Positions 6,975-50,032 of a DNA stretch of 64,000 nucleotides are shown piece by piece. The stretch's first letter is position 1. Each line of letters starts with the position of its first letter. Both the position numbers and the translations under genes were made by a program. The DNA lies in contig OZ029927.1 of assembly GCA_964023275.1 (NCBI GenBank), forward strand, positions 18,074,539 to 18,138,538, written 5' to 3'. The notes under the pieces are model-generated. The model did not search any database, was not told the origin of the DNA, and saw only the letters and a list, made by a program, of their open reading frames with translations. The stretch comes from Norana najaformis. Taxonomy: Eukaryota; Annelida; Clitellata; Crassiclitellata; Hormogastridae.

Positions 6975-7110
6975 CCTCAAGCACCTACCTACATACCTAC
7001 CTACCTGCCTACCTGCCTATCTACCTACCTACCTACCTACGTACTTACGTACCTACGTGCCTACGTACCTACATACCTACATACCTACCTACCTATCTAC
7101 CTGCCTTCCT

Positions 7111-7146
<36 letters not shown>

Positions 7147-7651
7147 ACCTACCTACCTACCTACCTGCCTACCTACCTACCTACCTCCCTCCCTGCGTGC
7201 CTATGTACCTACTTACCTGCCTGCCTGAATGCCTGCCTGCTTTCCTACCTACCTATCTACCTATCTACCTATCTACCTACCTACCTACCTACCTACCTAC
7301 CTACCCACCCACCCACCCACCCACCCACCCACCCACCCACCCACCCACCCACCCAGCCCACCCACCAACCCACCAACCCACCCACCCACCCACCCACCCA
7401 CCCACCCACCCACCCACCCACCCACCCACCCACCCACCCACACGCCCACACGCCCGCCCGCCCGCCCGCCCGCCCGCCCGCCCGCCCGCCCGCCCGCCCA
7501 CCCACCCACCCACCCACCCACCCACCCACCCACCTACCTACCTACCTGCCTACCTGCCTATCTACCTACCTACCTACCTACGTACTTACGTACCTAAGTG
7601 CCTACGTACCTACATACCTACATACCTACATACCTATCTACCTGCCTTCCT

Positions 7652-7687
<36 letters not shown>

Positions 7688-7998
7688 ACCTACCTACCTA
7701 CCTACCTGCCTACCTACCTACCTACCTCCCTCCCTGCGTGCCTATGTACCTACTTACCTGCCTGCCTGAATGCCTGCTTGCTTTCCTACCTACCTATCTA
7801 CCTATCTACCTATCTACCTACCTACCTACCTACCTACCTACCCACCCAACCACCCACCCACCCACCCACCCACCCACCCACCCACCCACCCACCCACCCA
7901 CCCACCCACCCACCCACCCACCCACCCACCTACCCACCTACATACCTACATACCTACATACCTACATACCTACATACCTACATACCTGCATACAAACA
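6975..7998. repeat. Compound CCTA/CCTG/CCCA/CCCG array, 541-bp duplication
   Basis: Long blocks of CCTA, CCTG, CCCA and CCCG tetranucleotides follow in a fixed order. The order, including odd landmarks such as CTGCCTGAATGCCTGC (near 7220 and 7761), repeats with an offset of 541 bp, so the region is a tandem duplication of a compound microsatellite. Open frames of up to 377 codons (Thr-Tyr-Leu-Pro, Pro-Thr-His-Pro) are artefacts of a stop-free unit. The minus strand carries TGGGTGGG runs. Confidence 0.92.
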
Positions 7999-14218: not shown

Positions 14219-14625
<407 letters not shown>

Positions 14626-14639
14626 ATGTGGTCCAACTC

Positions 14640-15440
14640 ATAACATTGTCAGTGTAGTTATTTTACTTCCTAGAGCATCAGTGGCACTCAAATCTTGAAC
14701 CATCATAGAGTCTTGAGTGGTATTTCAACCACGCTAATCGCTAGATTATCGCGCAACAAACCGAAGCCATTGATACAAATTAGTCAGTGCTGCGTGTCGT
14801 TTTCACGGTTGATAAGATATGTTGACATTGCAACTACATCGTAACAAGAAAGTGCAAAAGACGAACAGAATGGAAATACATCACTCGTAGGGTCATGTCT
14901 GTCCATCATCACATGCGTTCTTGCAAAGCTGATGTAAGTAGCATGCTCTAGAAAGTGTCGTTTAAATAATTGAAATTCTGAGTGTAGTCGTAATTCTTCA
15001 AAAGTAGCTCCACACGGACGATACATTACATATTATAAGCGTCTAGGAAATTCATTTAGCGCATTTTTGTGGTGCGCTTTCGAAGTCTATTCCACGTAAC
15101 TGTTTCGGTTTAATCGGTTCATTCAATCAATTCCTGTATTGGTTCAGTCTCTTCATTCAATCAGTTCGATTCATTTGTTTTGTTGTGAGCTTCGCTGACT
15201 GTCACTTGTTCACGCGGCGGTGGTTTAGCCTATCTGGAACTTTGAACTACATAGGTTTGTCATAGTTTCTCGAGTCCAGGTGCATGGCCAAATAACGAGA
15301 AGACTTCTGCAAGGACATATTGAGCTTAGACGATGTCGAGATGATTTGGTTTCAGAGAGCTTTTACCGTGTCTGACTTGCGCTAAACCTCGATGAAATTG
15401 AAACTCGTTGGTGCTGATTTTGAATCGACTCTTCCACCGG
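14640..15440. other. Unassigned sequence downstream of the receptor gene
   Basis: AT-rich non-repetitive DNA with no convincing open frame. It lies on the 3' side of the minus-strand receptor and could hold part of its 3' UTR. I saw no AATAAA signal on the minus strand close to the stop codon. Confidence 0.3.
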
Positions 15441-15785
15441 CAACCAGAATGTTCAAAACCCGTCCTGTTTTTCACGGAGAGACGGCAAAGACTGCAGACA
15501 GTGTTGGTGCTGTGTAGGTAGTTGAATGCAATTGGGTTCTTCTGGATCGTTCTTGCGACAAGAATTCTCAAAACACATCCTGTTTTTCAAGGAGAGGTGG
15601 TGACGACTGCAGAGAGCGTTGGTGCTTTTTGTACATAGAGGAGGAGTTCTGTGTAATTCTTTTAGAGCTTCCAGCTGTCAGAATGCTAGAAATTCGTCAT
15701 GCTTTTTCAAGCAGACTGCGAACATTTTCCATACTGGAGTCCTATGTAATTCGGTTCTTCTAGTGCGAAGATCTATAGCTGTCAT
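15440..15785. repeat. Three degenerate tandem copies of about 115 bp
   Basis: Units start near 15445, 15561 and 15677. They share CAGAATG, CATCCTGTTTTTCA, GGAGAG, GACTGCAGA, GTTGGTGCT and AATTCGGTTCTTCT. Copies are well diverged. The array ends about a dozen bases from the receptor stop codon (15797), so on the transcribed minus strand it would lie in the 3' UTR. Confidence 0.7.
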
Positions 15786-15796
15786 AAAGCGTCTAG

Positions 15797-16409
15797 TCAG
15801 CGACACAGCAATCGCGCGGTGTCATCTCGGAAGTTCTTATTCATGAACGAATAGATAACCGGATTTGCGACGTTGTTGGCGAAGTACATGTAGAAGATGG
15901 TCATGTTGTACGGGATCAGTTGCAACGCCATAAGAAACGCCGGCAGGAACGTGACAACGAAGACAACGGTCACAACGAACAACATGGCCGCCGTCTTCAG
16001 ATTCGCCATGCGGTTCAGATCGCGTTTCGTTGCCATCGAAATCGACTTGCGTCCCTCTTCCTTCTCGTTTCGTCCGCGTCCCTTCCCAAGATGGCCTCCC
16101 CCGTTGCGCTGAGACTCATTCGACCCGTCCGCTTCCACCGTAGTGATAAGGGTATCCTCCCCGTCCGGGCAGTACTGGCGTCGACACGGCCCCGTCGAGA
16201 CCACAAGGGATAGGCTCTTGCTCTTTGCGTTCTGTCGACGGGTACGCCTGGCGAGTACCGAACGATAGATTAGAACGTAGAGTACGGCGACCACGATCAG
16301 ACACAGTAGGTACAGTGCCGTGTAGCACTTCTGAAAAGTCAACTGGAACTGCGTGCTGACGACCAGCTCGTTCGGCTCGCAGCTTCCGGTGTAGGTAACC
16401 ACGACGTAC
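15797..16409 (-). other. Receptor coding exon 2
   Basis: Begins after the acceptor TTAAAATTCAG (AG at 16411-16410). The first base completes the arginine codon 252. It then codes for the end of the second extracellular loop, TM5, the third intracellular loop, TM6, TM7 and the short C-tail, and stops with TGA at 15797-15799. Confidence 0.9.
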
Positions 16410-19400
16410 CTGAATTTTAAAGATGGTAACAATTTTAAGAATAGTAAAAATTGAAAATGAAATATGAAAAAAACATAAAATGGATCTAGGAAGAAAGACT
16501 TTGACGAGTTCAAACTGTTTCAGAATCTAGTTTCATCAAAATCGCCGTCATCATCTTCATCATCATCTGTGGAGCGCCCCATTAGGAGCCTTGCCGTTTT
16601 CACAAAACTTTGCCACCAGCAAAGGATAGTGCGCGAACTCACCAACTCAAAGAGCCACGAAGCGAAGGTGCCGATAAAGAGTAAGGACGGACGAGTGCTG
16701 ACGACCGAAGAGGAACAAAATGCAAGATGGGTTGAGCACTTCAGTGAAGTCCTGAACCAACCAGCACCGAACAACCCACCGAACCTGGAGGGTGAAGAGG
16801 CAATGAAACAACCGAACATAACCTTGGAGAAGATAGATATAGAGGAGGTCAGGAGGGCGATAAGTGCATTGAAAAACAACAAGGCAGCAGGGATGGACGA
16901 GATCACAGCAGAAATGATAAAATGCGGAGGCAGGGCGATGGAGGAAGAGCTCACACATCTGTCCAATTTGGTATGGTAGAGCGAGGAGGTCCCAGAGGAT
17001 TGGAGGAAAGGAGTGATCGTTAAACTGCCCAAAAAGGGACCACTGAGCGATTGTAACTACTGGAGAGGCATAACATTGCTGTCAATACCAGGCAAAGTGT
17101 TCTGTAGAGTGCTGATGAATCGACTGAGAACAGAGGTGGATAGAACTTTGAGAGAAGAACAAGCGGGGTTTCGACCTGGGAGGTCATGCAACGAGCAGAT
17201 ATTCACACTAAGAAACATAATCGAACAGAGCAGTGAGTTCAATAGGGAACTGTTGGTAAACTTCGTGGATTTCAGGAAGGCATTTGATAGCATAAATAGG
17301 GATACGCTCTGGAACATAGTCAGACTATATGGAGTGCCGGAAAAGTACATAAACATCTTTAAAGCCCTGTATCGGGACGCCAGTTGCTGCATCAGAACAG
17401 AAAATGGCAACACATTAATGTTTCAAATAGTATCAGGAGTACGACAAGGATGCGTTCTGTCCCCATTCCTATTTGCCATTGTCATGGATTACATCATGAA
17501 AAGAGCAATGAACGAACCTACTTTTGGTATAGGATGGGGACAGGGGAGACTGAAGGATTTGGACTTCGCAGATGACATAGCCCTGCTGAGTGAAACACAC
17601 ATGGATATGCAGAGGATGACTACGAGGTTACAGGAGATGGGGGAGGGGGTAGGACTATGCATAAACAGTGCGAAAACAAAGGCCATGATCGTCGGAGACA
17701 CGGAGCACTCAAACATCAAGATAGGCCAGGAAACTATAGATTATGTTTGCAATTTCCCATACCTGGGAAGTTTTATGGAGAAGGATGGCGGCGTAGAGAT
17801 GGATGTCAAGACAAGGATTGGTAAAGCTGCATCAGTCTTTCAGAGAATGAGGACAGTATGGAGATCGGGAGCGTTGAGAAGAGACGCAAAGATACAGTTG
17901 TACTCGACATTGGTGTTGCCTGTGGTGTTATACGCGACTGAGACTTGGAAGACAACGGTGAAGACAACAAAACAACTGAATGTCTTTCATAGGAGGTGCC
18001 TACGATCCATACTGGGCATCTCATGGAGGGACCACGTCAGAAATGAGGAGGTGCTGAGGATGGCGGGAACGCAGGATCTTGAATATATCATCGCGGGGAG
18101 AAGAGGAAGGTTGGCCGGACACATTCTTAGACTACCGAAGGAGAGAATTGCGAGGACGGCGATGGATTGGGTACCGGAGGGTGGAAGACGTAAAAGGGGA
18201 CGGCCGAAAAACACTTGGAGGCGAGCTTTCAGGGGAGATCTGGAGCGGATGGGATTGGACTGGGACGAGGCGCTGGTGATGGCTGGTGAGCGCGTGGAAT
18301 GGCGAAGGCTTGTCGACCAATGCTCCGATCGGAACAGGAGGATCTAAGTCTAAGTAAGTCGTTCAGCTCGTAGCTCCCGGTGTAGACAAACACGACTTAC
18401 TTGGATTTAAAATAGTTTCCAATTTCAATTTCCAATAGTTGAGTTAGTTTTGTGTGCTTGTTTATGATCATTGTTTTGGTTAAGGTATGTTTTAGTTTTA
18501 GTTTTGCACTGGATGTCTTAAATGACATACTCTGGTTGATATATCTTAAGTTGATCATTTGCCTTATGCATATTTGTATTAGGTTACAGGCGTTTCCATT
18601 AAGCGGGACCTTTTTGAGAGGTACTTGAAGAGCGCTATATAAGTGCTTGTTACATTACATTACATTACATTACATTACCTTGTCCTTTTGGACCTGCCTT
18701 TTGATACCCTTGGAGATTTTATACGCTGTTCTTAAAAACATCTTTGCTTATTTGTTAGTTTGAACGGTTTCAATAGATGAACATTTAACTGAATTGAATC
18801 AGCACCCCAAAAAATAATAAAAATTGTAAACATGATGAAAATGAATAGGAAAAATTGATCCGGGAGTAAAGACCTTGACGGGTTGAAGGTGTTCCAAAAT
18901 CTAGTATCCTTAACTTTGCTGCCGTCATCATCTCGAGCCTCAGGCGTCTCTGTGTGTGGGGATGCCGGTTCGTATACCGACATAATGGCTACATTTCAGA
19001 GATAGAAATCTCGGGCTAGTACGGTCCGTACGCGGAGACCTTAAATGGCGTGGCACTTATTCAAAACGGCAGCAATGGTGAAGGATCTCACCCGATTAAT
19101 TCATTGGAAAATGAGCACAGTGAAGTCCATTATAAAACTATGTACATTTGCGTTTACATTTAATCGCCGGAGTTTTCTAAATCCCGAGGGATTATTGGTA
19201 CCTTGGGTATAGAATTGTAATTGTAATTGTAATTGTAATCTGACATTTATAAAGCGCCACTTCAAGAATAGACTCATCAGAAGCGCTCCCGACCCGAACC
19301 AGTGAGACCACTGGCAAATAATACAGACTTCAGGCGCTTGCGAAACTGCGGAAGAGACAAACTGAGGAATATTAGCCGAAGCTCTCGGGAAAGGCGATTC

Positions 19401-20448
19401 CAGCTATTGGGTCCAACATAGGCAAAGCAAAGAATATGTACATGAGAAGGAAAATGATTTGCTAGAGTGGAACCATGGAGATGGTGTGTTTCAAAAATAA
19501 AAATAATGCATGAGAGACAACAACGGCCTTTGTTTGCCACAAAGCATCGTTGGCAGTGTTCAGTGCATGTATGTATTATACTCACAGTGTATTTGAAGAA
19601 CCTCTTCACAGCGCACCTAAAGGCAGCGCTTTTGAAAGGTTCTTAAAGGCGCAATATAAATGCCTTTGTAGATCCGCCACTGAGTGTAAGTACCTGGCGG
19701 CACCATTATCCACTTCCAGTCCCTCAGAGTACCTCCTGAAGACCGGGTACACGCTCGTGTCCGCTTCGAAGTCACCGTAGACGACGTCGAAGGAACTGAC
19801 ATCTGTCGGCTGGTGCTGAGGTTCGGCGGATGAGGAGTCGTTACCTGCTCCGTTTGGTGACGTATACTCAAGTTTGTATACGCCGTACATGAGGGACACG
19901 CAGACTCCAATCGCCGCAGCCAGGAGGGCGAGAACGGCAACGCCCAGCTTAGCCCTGAAGACAGTCATCGCGTGGAGGAACGGGTGGCAGATGCAAAAGT
20001 AGCGGTCGATGGCGATGGCGACCATGATGAACGCCGAGAACGGGATGTTGGAGGTGATGAGAAACTGGTAGATCTTGCAGACGAAGTCCATCTCCACCCG
20101 GAAGTTGACGTACTCCATGTAGATCGTGTAGGGTATGACGACGAGGCATGTCACGAAGTCGACCAGGGCCAGGACGAGGATGAAGAGGGTCGACACCTGC
20201 TTGTCCTTCTTCTGCGAGAAGACGTACATCACCAGAGCGTTGCCCGCTGTACCTGTGAGGCTGAGCAGAATAAGGATCGCCATGACAGCGTACAATTCGG
20301 TGCGGTCCGTCGTATCAAGAGATGAGCTGTTGTTGTCGGTTGCTGATGCTGGGGTCCAGGTGCTGTAACCGTCGCCTCTTTCTTCTCCGTCGCCTGATTT
20401 CACGTCATTTCCTCTGAACAATGCCAGGGTCTCTTTGGTGATGTTCAT
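15797..20448 (-). CDS. Class A (rhodopsin-like) G-protein-coupled receptor, two coding exons
   Basis: Join 20448-19694 with 16409-15797: 1368 nt, 455 residues plus stop. A seven-transmembrane receptor of the plasma membrane, expected to signal through heterotrimeric G proteins. Visible marks: N-glycosylation sites near the N-terminus (N2, N39/N40), TM1 about 52-77 with GN at 69-70, TM2 with LALVD (D97), TM3 starting at C124, DRY at 148-150, TM4 about 166-190, a long second extracellular loop with C262 that should pair with C124, TM5 about 279-300, a long basic third intracellular loop (301-388), TM6 about 391-415, NPVIY at 434-438, and a short tail ending in Cys-Arg. TM6 reads TFLP where most class A receptors have CWxP, so the toggle tryptophan is replaced by phenylalanine. 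ATG at 20448 is chosen because an in-frame TAG lies just upstream (20459-20457); TTCTAG there could also be an acceptor for a 5' UTR exon. Ligand not predictable; a peptide or amine receptor is likely. Confidence 0.92.
16366..16565. repeat. Direct repeat copy 1 (receptor exon 2 start plus intron end)
   Basis: This 200-bp segment covers the first 44 bp of receptor exon 2 and the adjoining intron. It lies directly left of the LINE and is matched by 18360-18425 plus 18815-18935 directly to its right. Confidence 0.8.
16566..18359 (+). mobile_element. 5'-truncated LINE reverse transcriptase within the receptor intron
   Basis: One continuous frame of 592 codons (16569-18347) broken only by a TAG at 16977-16979. 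Motifs in order: NNKAAGMDEI (RT entry region), KLPKKG..WRGITLLS, EEQAGFRPGRSC, VDFRKAFDSI, GVRQGCVLSP, the catalytic FADD at 17565-17576, then the C-terminal HILRLP and RKRGRPKNTWRR segments. The endonuclease domain is absent, so the copy is 5'-truncated and could not act alone. The tail is a short TAAGTC-type repeat (18345-18359). It lies antisense to the receptor gene. Probably RTE-like, clade not settled. Confidence 0.9.
18360..18935 (-). pseudogene. Decayed duplicate of receptor exon 2 start and intron end
   Basis: Segment 18360-18425 matches 16366-16430 (CCGGTGTAG, CACGAC, GTTCnGCTCG and so on, about 80 percent by eye), and 18815-18935 matches 16445-16555 (AAAGACnTTGACG, AATCTAGT, GCCGTCATCATCT). 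A foreign piece (about 18430-18800) separates the two halves. On the receptor strand the acceptor CAG has become CAA and the second codon TAC has become TAA, so this copy cannot serve as an exon. The rest of the exon copy is missing at the LINE junction. Confidence 0.75.
18430..18685 (+). mobile_element. Retroelement 3' end with CATTA tail
   Basis: A TTTTTGAGAGGTACTTGAAG block leads to GAGCGCTATATAAGTGCTTG (about 18629) and then CATTA pentamers. It sits inside the decayed exon-2 duplicate and splits it, so it inserted after the duplication. No coding sequence remains. Confidence 0.65.
18938..19168 (+). mobile_element. SINE S2 copy
   Basis: Box B-like GCCGGTTCGTATACCGAC at about 18963 is followed by the S2 body (TTTCAGAGATAGAAATCTCG, CCTTAAATGGCGTGGCA, GTGAAGGATCTCACCCG) and the 3' end TTTGCGTTTACATTT. 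Box A is truncated. Lies in the receptor intron, antisense to the gene. Confidence 0.82.
19195..19545 (-). mobile_element. LINE-C 3' end with polymerase C-terminus
   Basis: On the minus strand the frame reads FAYVGPNSWNRLSRELRL, then LPQFRKRLKSVLFASG, the C-terminal signature of a CR1/L2-like polymerase. It is followed by a GCGCTTTATAAATGTC module and an ATTACA tail (19205-19240). Same family as 24060-24305. Sense with respect to the receptor, within its intron. Confidence 0.8.
19590..19665 (+). mobile_element. Short retroelement 3' end next to the splice donor
   Basis: GGTTCTTAAAGGCGCAATATAAATGCC carries the shared 3' module and lies within 40 bp of the receptor donor site (19693). No other part of an element is visible. 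Confidence 0.5.
19694..20448 (-). other. Receptor coding exon 1
   Basis: Codes for the N-terminus through TM4 and most of the second extracellular loop (residues 1-251 and two bases of codon 252). It ends GCCAG, followed by the donor GTACTTAC (19693 downward), phase 2. The original frame would run on to a stop at 19606, which gives a 280-residue truncated four-helix product if the intron were retained. Confidence 0.9.
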
Positions 20449-20514
20449 ATTCACCTAGAAGACATCAGACGCAAACAAGGTAGCTAACAACAATAGCACC
20501 ATCCAGAAATAACT

Positions 20515-37911: not shown

Positions 37912-39125
37912 GTGTATTGCATTGTATCGCATTGTATCGCATTGTATTGTATTGCATTGCATTGCATTGTATTGCATTGCATTGCATTGCATTGTATTAC
38001 ATTGTATTACATTGTATTACATTGTATTACATTGTATTACATTGTATTGTATTGCATTGCATTGTATCGCATTGTATTGTATTGCATTGCATTGTATTGC
38101 ATTGTATTACATTGTATTACATTGCATTACATTGTATTACATTGCATTACATTGCATTACATTGCATTACATTGCATTACATTGCATTACATTGCATTAC
38201 ATTGTATTACAATGCGTTACAATGCATTACATTGTATTACATTGTATTACATTGTATTACATTGTATTACATTGTATTACATTGTATTGCATTGTATTGC
38301 ATTGTATTGGATAGCATTGTATTGCATTGCATTGCATTGTATTACATTGTATTACATTGCATTGCATTGTATTACATTGCATTACATTGCATTACATTGT
38401 ATTACATTGTATTACATTGTATTACATTGTATTACATTGTATTACATTGTATTGGATAGCATTGTATTGCATTGCATTACATTGTATTACATTGTATTAC
38501 ATTGCATTGCATTGTATTACATTGCATTACATTGCATTGCATTGTATTACATTGTATTACATTGCATTGCATTGTATTACATTGTATTAAATTGTATTAC
38601 ATTGTATTACATTGCATTGCATTGTATTACATTGTATTACATTGTATTACATTGTATTACATTGTATTGGATTGCATTGGATTGCATTACATTGTATTAC
38701 ATTGTATTACATTGTATTACATTGCATTGCATTGTATTACATTGTATTACATTGCATTACATTGTATTACATTGCATTACATTGTATTACATTGCATTAC
38801 ATTGCATTACATTGCATTACATTGTATTACATTGTATTACATTGTATTACATTGTATTACATTGTATTGGATAGCATTGTATTGCATTGCATTGCATTGT
38901 ATTACATTGTATTACATTGTATTACATTGTATTACATTGTATTATATTGTATTACATTGTATTACATTGCATTGGATTGCATTGGATTGCATTACATTGT
39001 ATTACATTGTATTACATTGTATTACATTGTATTGTATCATATTGTATCATATTACATTGTATTGCGTTGCATTGTATTATATTGTATTGTGTTGTATTGT
39101 ATTGCATAGCATTGCATTGTATCTC
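37912..39125. repeat. 1.2-kb pentanucleotide array (ATTGC/ATTGT/ATTAC)
   Basis: Almost pure 5-bp units with three main variants, usually alternating as ATTACATTGT. A landmark TTGGATAGCATTGTATTGC recurs at about 38307, 38452 and 38867, and an ATTGGATTGCATTGGATTGC landmark at about 38666 and 38969, showing higher-order duplication. All three plus-strand frames stay open for hundreds of codons because the unit has no stop on that strand. Confidence 0.95.
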
Positions 39126-49330: not shown

Positions 49331-49430
49331 TATTTCAAAAGGCCACAGTAGTGTTCGACTACAGGCCACAGTTACTACATTTAAAAATAGCCCTTTTAAG
49401 AGGTCCTAAAAGGCGCTATATAGATATACA
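49330..49430 (+). mobile_element. Retroelement 3' end leading into the 22-bp array
   Basis: CTTTTAAGAGGTCCTAAAAG, then GCGCTATATAGATATACAG (49411), and the array starts immediately. Confidence 0.6.
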
Positions 49431-50032
49431 GATACATAAGCACACATACACAGATACATAGACACATACACAGATACATAGACACATACACAGATACATA
49501 AACACACATACACAGATACATAACACACATACACAGATACATAAACACGCATACACAGATACATAAACGCACATACACAGATACATAAACACACATACAC
49601 AGATACATAAACATACATACACAGATACATAAACGCACATACACAGATACATAAACACACATACACAGATACATAAACATACATACACAGATACATAAAA
49701 CACATATACAAATACATAAGCACACATACACAGATACATAAACACACATACACAGATACATAAACACGCATACACAGATACATAAACACACATACATAGA
49801 TACATAAACACACATACACAGATACATAAACACACATACACAGATACATAAAACACATATACAAATACATAAACACAGATACATAAACATACATACACAG
49901 ATACATAAACACGCATACACAGATACATAAACACACATACATAGATACATAAACACACATACACAGATACATAAACACACATACACAGATACATAAACAC
50001 ACATACACAGATACATAAACACACATACACAT
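49425..50032. repeat. 22-bp minisatellite, about 27 copies
   Basis: The unit is made of ACACATACAC and AGATACATAA blocks. Variants (CGCA, TACA, AAACACATAT) are spread in a pattern that suggests block duplications. The unit has no stop in minus frames, giving three long Cys-Val-Tyr frames that are not genes. Confidence 0.92.

Follow-up and report, generated by a model that had tools for sequence, protein, structure and literature searches.

The window analysed here is a stretch of 64,000 nt from the genome of Norana najaformis (GCA_964023275.1, a 608 Mb assembly in 17 contigs; OZ029927.1, positions 18,074,539-18,138,538 of the forward strand). It contains a rhodopsin-family GPCR gene on the minus strand, with two exons that correspond to the first and second half of the Pfam 7tm_1 domain. 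Profile positions 1-132 are covered by 19606-20454 (exon 1), and profile positions 146-260 by 15797-16399 (exon 2). The acceptor of exon 2 was read off the sequence as CAG/G at 16410/16409, and the donor of exon 1 (AG/GTACTT) was placed by eye. Going outward from exon 2, the receptor intron consists of an inner copy of a direct repeat, a 51-bp spacer, a LINE and an outer copy of the same repeat (Table 1). As predicted originally, the exon 2 that lies beside the LINE is intact, with an open frame, a 7tm_1 match and its acceptor in place.

Table 1. Features of the receptor locus (positions within the window).
Feature	Position	Strand	Basis
Receptor exon 2 (second GPCR half), intact frame	15800..16409	-	Open frame; Pfam 7tm_1; acceptor
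Inner repeat copy: first 42 bp of exon 2 and 3' end of the intron	16368..16571	-	Alignment
Spacer, 51 bp, neither LINE nor repeat	16572..16622	.	No match clearly above shuffles
Young 5'-truncated RTE-type LINE (putative class), RT region, tail TAAGTCTAAGTAAG	16623..18358	+	Translation; Pfam; sibling comparison
Exon-start part of the outer repeat copy, with CAA for the acceptor CAG and TAA for the codon TAC	18359..18412	-	Alignment
Block confined to the outer copy: dispersed repeat interrupted by 64 bp	18413..18809	.	Similarity search; array detection
Outer repeat copy, intron part	18810..18954	-	Alignment
Receptor exon 1 (first GPCR half)	19694..20448	-	Pfam 7tm_1; sequence

The same intron also carries, at 19213-19428, a very abundant, young short repeat of a SINE-like family. 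Among the matches scored for this repeat (40 of 4794 candidates), 39 of 40 others share 98-100% identity with it along about 200-218 bp, and the remaining one shares 80%. Long microsatellites are numerous across the window (e.g. 6983-7987, 37913-39122 and 49424-50031). At 1005-1205 on the minus strand, a weak tblastn match to the C-terminal part of the LINE (36.8% over 68 aa, E 4e-4) may be an ancient remnant of a related element.

The LINE translation is interrupted by one in-frame stop (TAG at 16977-16979) and contains an RT domain of non-LTR type (Pfam RVT_1, 3.1e-34), with the R2 and LINE-1 RTs as best PDB matches and group II intron-type RTs among the weaker ones. An apparently full-length sibling of about 3.17 kb (L033, LINE extent 3171 bp) encodes a single frame of 994 aa with an AP-type endonuclease (Exo_endo_phos, 1.3e-8) and an RT (RVT_1, 1.4e-34), as in RTE elements of about 3.2 kb. 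The tail of the window LINE consists of short AT-rich 3' repeats of the TAAG type. We call the element RTE-type, an assignment suggested by its RT domain, by the frame and endonuclease of L033 and by the 3' tail. From Rte-1 of C. elegans, a direct repeat of about 200 bp is known. In all 12 siblings that reach that far, the match begins at 16623 (query position 58), and the same start was observed again in the seven of these in plus orientation; the LINE was therefore delimited as 16623-18358. A search for its relatives in viral contigs confirmed none.

The original prediction described a long direct repeat of the exon 2 edge around the LINE, and alignment of both halves bears this out. In the exon-start half (16368-16421 and 18359-18412), the copies share 81% identity over 54 bp and score 68, whereas none of 500 dinucleotide shuffles exceeded 31.5. 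The intron half (16428-16571 and 18810-18954) scores 119, against 50.5 for the best of 500 such shuffles. With the halves joined and the inserted block left out, the copies are 79.3% identical over 188 ungapped columns, with six gap events, a K2P distance of 0.244 and 39 differences (19 transitions and 20 transversions).

The outer copy was also predicted to have lost its function as an exon. Both marks of this loss, the CAA in place of the acceptor and the TAA in place of a codon, are present in the alignment; another AG sits one base beyond the lost acceptor. Seven of the 42 bases in the exon part differ between the copies, of which six change the encoded residue (including one Cys codon that became Tyr) and one is silent, which points to decay rather than selection. 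Judged by its letters, the outer copy would be a dead 42-bp exon edge running into an antisense LINE, and if spliced at the old site its first codon would be a stop.

The block that interrupts the outer copy is largely a dispersed repeat of about 310 bp, matched at 18426-18612 and 18677-18785/18800. Between these parts lie 64 bp (18613-18676) that contain a TTACA array and are absent from the scored relatives of the repeat. Among the 40 matches scored out of 616 candidates, near-complete relatives are 80-87% identical to the first part and relatives of the second part 78-94% identical; the best near-complete relative reaches 87%, and the closest locus is partial, with both parts matched piecewise at 90 and 94%. 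How far a repeat has diverged from its nearest sampled relative gives no more than an approximate date for its insertion. Most simply, the dispersed repeat would have entered the outer copy in the interval between the duplication and the arrival of the LINE, while loss of an originally present block from the inner copy is conceivable. Part of the block (18612-18665) also matches the flank of the LINE sibling L032, with 96% identity over 54 bp.

The two junctions of the LINE differ. According to the original prediction, the repeat copies directly adjoin the LINE on either side. This holds at the 3' side, where the last base of the tail (18358) is followed at once by the outer copy (from 18359), but at the 5' side the spacer of 51 bp separates the LINE from the inner copy. 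None of the 12 siblings that extend this far contains the spacer (16572-16622). Had the LINE split an intact outer copy, the spacer should resemble the exon, but against 14500-16420, including exon 2, it scored 22.5, with a mean of 21.3 and a maximum of 33.5 in 300 shuffles, and such a simple split is therefore rejected. The spacer was equally poor as a continuation of the intron of the outer copy (17.5; shuffle maximum 29.5), as a piece of the inserted block (19.5; 24.5), and as upstream LINE sequence of the siblings L003 and L010 (17.0 and 21.0; 25.5 and 28.0). Compared with the 39 sibling loci, its best score was 29.0 on the plus strand (L016), against a 95% level of 28.0 and a maximum of 33.0 for shuffled spacers, and 24.0 on the minus strand. 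Scores against the LINE body were 14 and 18 (shuffle maximum 21). Given these scores against LINE and siblings, an inverted LINE piece produced by twin priming is unsupported as the source of the spacer. At the junctions of the LINE, no target-site duplication of its own was found by a test that reaches 7 bp from the 5' junction and would therefore miss one lying beyond a longer filler.

Siblings of the window LINE were used to survey the duplications made by its family. They comprise all 39 other matches among the 40 scored of 101 first-look candidates, a sample biased towards young and long copies. Against a control of 600 mismatched flank pairs, 26 of the 39 siblings exceeded the 95% level, at which about two are expected by chance, and 13 fell below it. 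Hence, the lack of a detectable duplication at the window LINE is not rare. Duplication lengths, based on BLAST ends with a possible error of a few bases, were 8-15 bp in 18 siblings, 20-29 bp in three and 39-381 bp in five. The five long duplications (39, 41, 46, 87 and 381 bp) are flush, and their copies are 94-100% identical. They are as similar as the youth of the element predicts, in contrast to the repeat in the window. The longest, a 381-bp direct repeat of 99% identity that is flush on both sides, surrounds a copy without its 3' end (L045, C6:15626387-15631542). The 3' end is likewise missing in L049, which has a duplication of 46 bp, and in a third copy, L044, which has none above the control. 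Loss of the 3' end may thus be associated with long duplications. In another, long sibling (L040, C4:12931500-12937308), a second 45-bp LINE 3' tail occurs about 56 bp upstream of the start, at 1575-1619 in LINE orientation, where one element was inserted near the end of another.

The LINE and the repeat differ strongly in age. Siblings covering the whole LINE range from L031, with 10 mismatches in 1722 positions and no gaps, to L041, with 112 differences in 1719 positions. On a tree of the 11 of 39 siblings with full cover, the window LINE has five private substitutions in 1722 bp, one of which created its stop, and a terminal branch of 0.0036. If the repeat had been born with the LINE, 1.35 differences would be expected in the 188 columns, whereas 39 were observed (log10 P about -42, and still about -15 with the age of the LINE set at 0.02). 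This count of substitutions is independent of the dating of the dispersed repeat. The nearly open frame of the LINE agrees with a young age, since a change of 10% per lineage introduced a mean of 6.4 new stops, and at least two, in 200 simulations. With 39 against 1.35 differences, and a K2P distance of 0.244 against a branch of 0.0036, the duplication must be many times older than the LINE.

We therefore favour, with a probability of about 0.82, an old local duplication that comprised the start of exon 2 and the end of its intron, decayed into a pseudo-exon and was later invaded by a young 5'-truncated RTE element. The age gap thus supports what the original prediction had listed as an alternative, an older exon duplication invaded later. 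In the proposed sequence of events, a local duplication would first have copied the start of receptor exon 2 together with the end of its intron. The dispensable outer copy would then have decayed, losing its acceptor, gaining a stop and taking in the dispersed repeat. Recently, reverse transcription of RTE-type LINE RNA at the left edge of the surviving part of the outer copy would have yielded a 5'-truncated insertion. We infer that the duplication originally reached further into exon 2, and that the LINE insertion probably deleted this further exon sequence, which would have lain between 16622 and today's junction. Such a target-site deletion is suggested by the 51 bp left of the LINE, which do not continue the exon of the outer copy. 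A trace of the missing exon part was not found elsewhere in the 64-kb window either, which makes the deletion an argument from absence. The flush 3' boundary then needs no coincidence, since the insertion itself would have cut the outer copy there. On this account, the repeat is ordinary genome wear and not a giant insertion scar; the LINE did not make it.

The reading first proposed for the repeat, a genuine target-site duplication of roughly 200 bp made by the window LINE, with the 51 bp as 5' filler, is refuted by the ages and exceedingly improbable. Its geometry is possible for the LINE family, as siblings make duplications of up to 381 bp, and a target-site duplication would likewise leave the outer copy in flush contact with the LINE tail. 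Filler has precedents as well, with extra 5'-junction nucleotides in 14.6% of 5'-truncated L1 insertions according to PMC2912911. Against all this stand 39 differences where about 1.4 are expected, six gaps in the repeat although the LINE aligns with its nearest sibling without any, and a dispersed repeat within the outer copy that has no close relative among the 40 scored.

An old repeat around a young body could also have arisen as the long target-site duplication of an earlier RTE element, whose body was later replaced by gene conversion or by insertion of a young element into its tail. This scenario would explain the old repeat, the young body and the flush 3' end at once; long duplications occur in the family, and the second tail of L040 shows that insertion near the tail of another element happens. 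But a remnant of the older LINE is not visible, the spacer has no LINE match, and conversion would need to span the entire 1.7 kb, so that we regard this scenario as unlikely. A still smaller chance is given to a fusion of paralogous receptor genes in tandem, or of two haplotypes, whether through a deletion associated with the LINE or through an assembly error. Such a fusion would likewise leave two diverged copies of one exon edge around the LINE, but the outer copy, with its stop and lost acceptor, is not a working allele. Moreover, tblastn turned up no further convincing remnant of either receptor exon in the 64-kb window (all other rows E >= 0.53), and an assembly of only 17 contigs speaks against an assembly error.

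In tandem exon duplication followed by decay, one copy remains functional while the other loses its splice site and frame. The receptor locus fits this pattern, as one exon copy works and the other has lost splice site and frame; it differs in that a LINE has cut the decayed copy, of whose exon part no more than a 42-bp edge survives. The element itself resembles the RTE element SR3 of Schistosoma mansoni, for which PMC1291365 describes TAAG-type 3' repeats and duplications of 10-12 bp. Shared with SR3, as described there, are a length of about 3.2 kb with one large frame for an AP-type endonuclease and an RT (in L033), a very short 3' end in TAAG-type repeats, copies in introns, and short duplications (here 8-15 bp in 18 of 39 siblings). 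Unlike SR3 in that account, the window LINE is 5'-truncated to the RT part, and its family includes some very long duplications, up to 381 bp compared with 10-12 bp. For L1 in HeLa cells, 5'-truncated insertions often come with target-site deletions or with duplications that are either extremely long or very short (Gilbert et al., cited in PMC2912911). A 5'-truncated copy with a probable target-site deletion, or with a long duplication, recalls these radical changes of the L1 target site, although the window LINE belongs to a different clade and is a germline copy known from the occupied site alone.

There is a slim chance that the LINE family recurrently makes duplications of 39-381 bp and that the repeat in the receptor intron is the refilled fossil of one of them; if so, long RTE duplications would be a recurring source of partial exon duplications. 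Under the favoured history, with an old exon duplication and a later LINE, the locus illustrates that an apparent giant target-site duplication can arise jointly from a duplication of long standing and the recent insertion of an element; comparison of the element with its siblings gives the date that settles such cases. The sibling survey further provides a measured spread of duplication lengths, with a long tail, for one RTE family.
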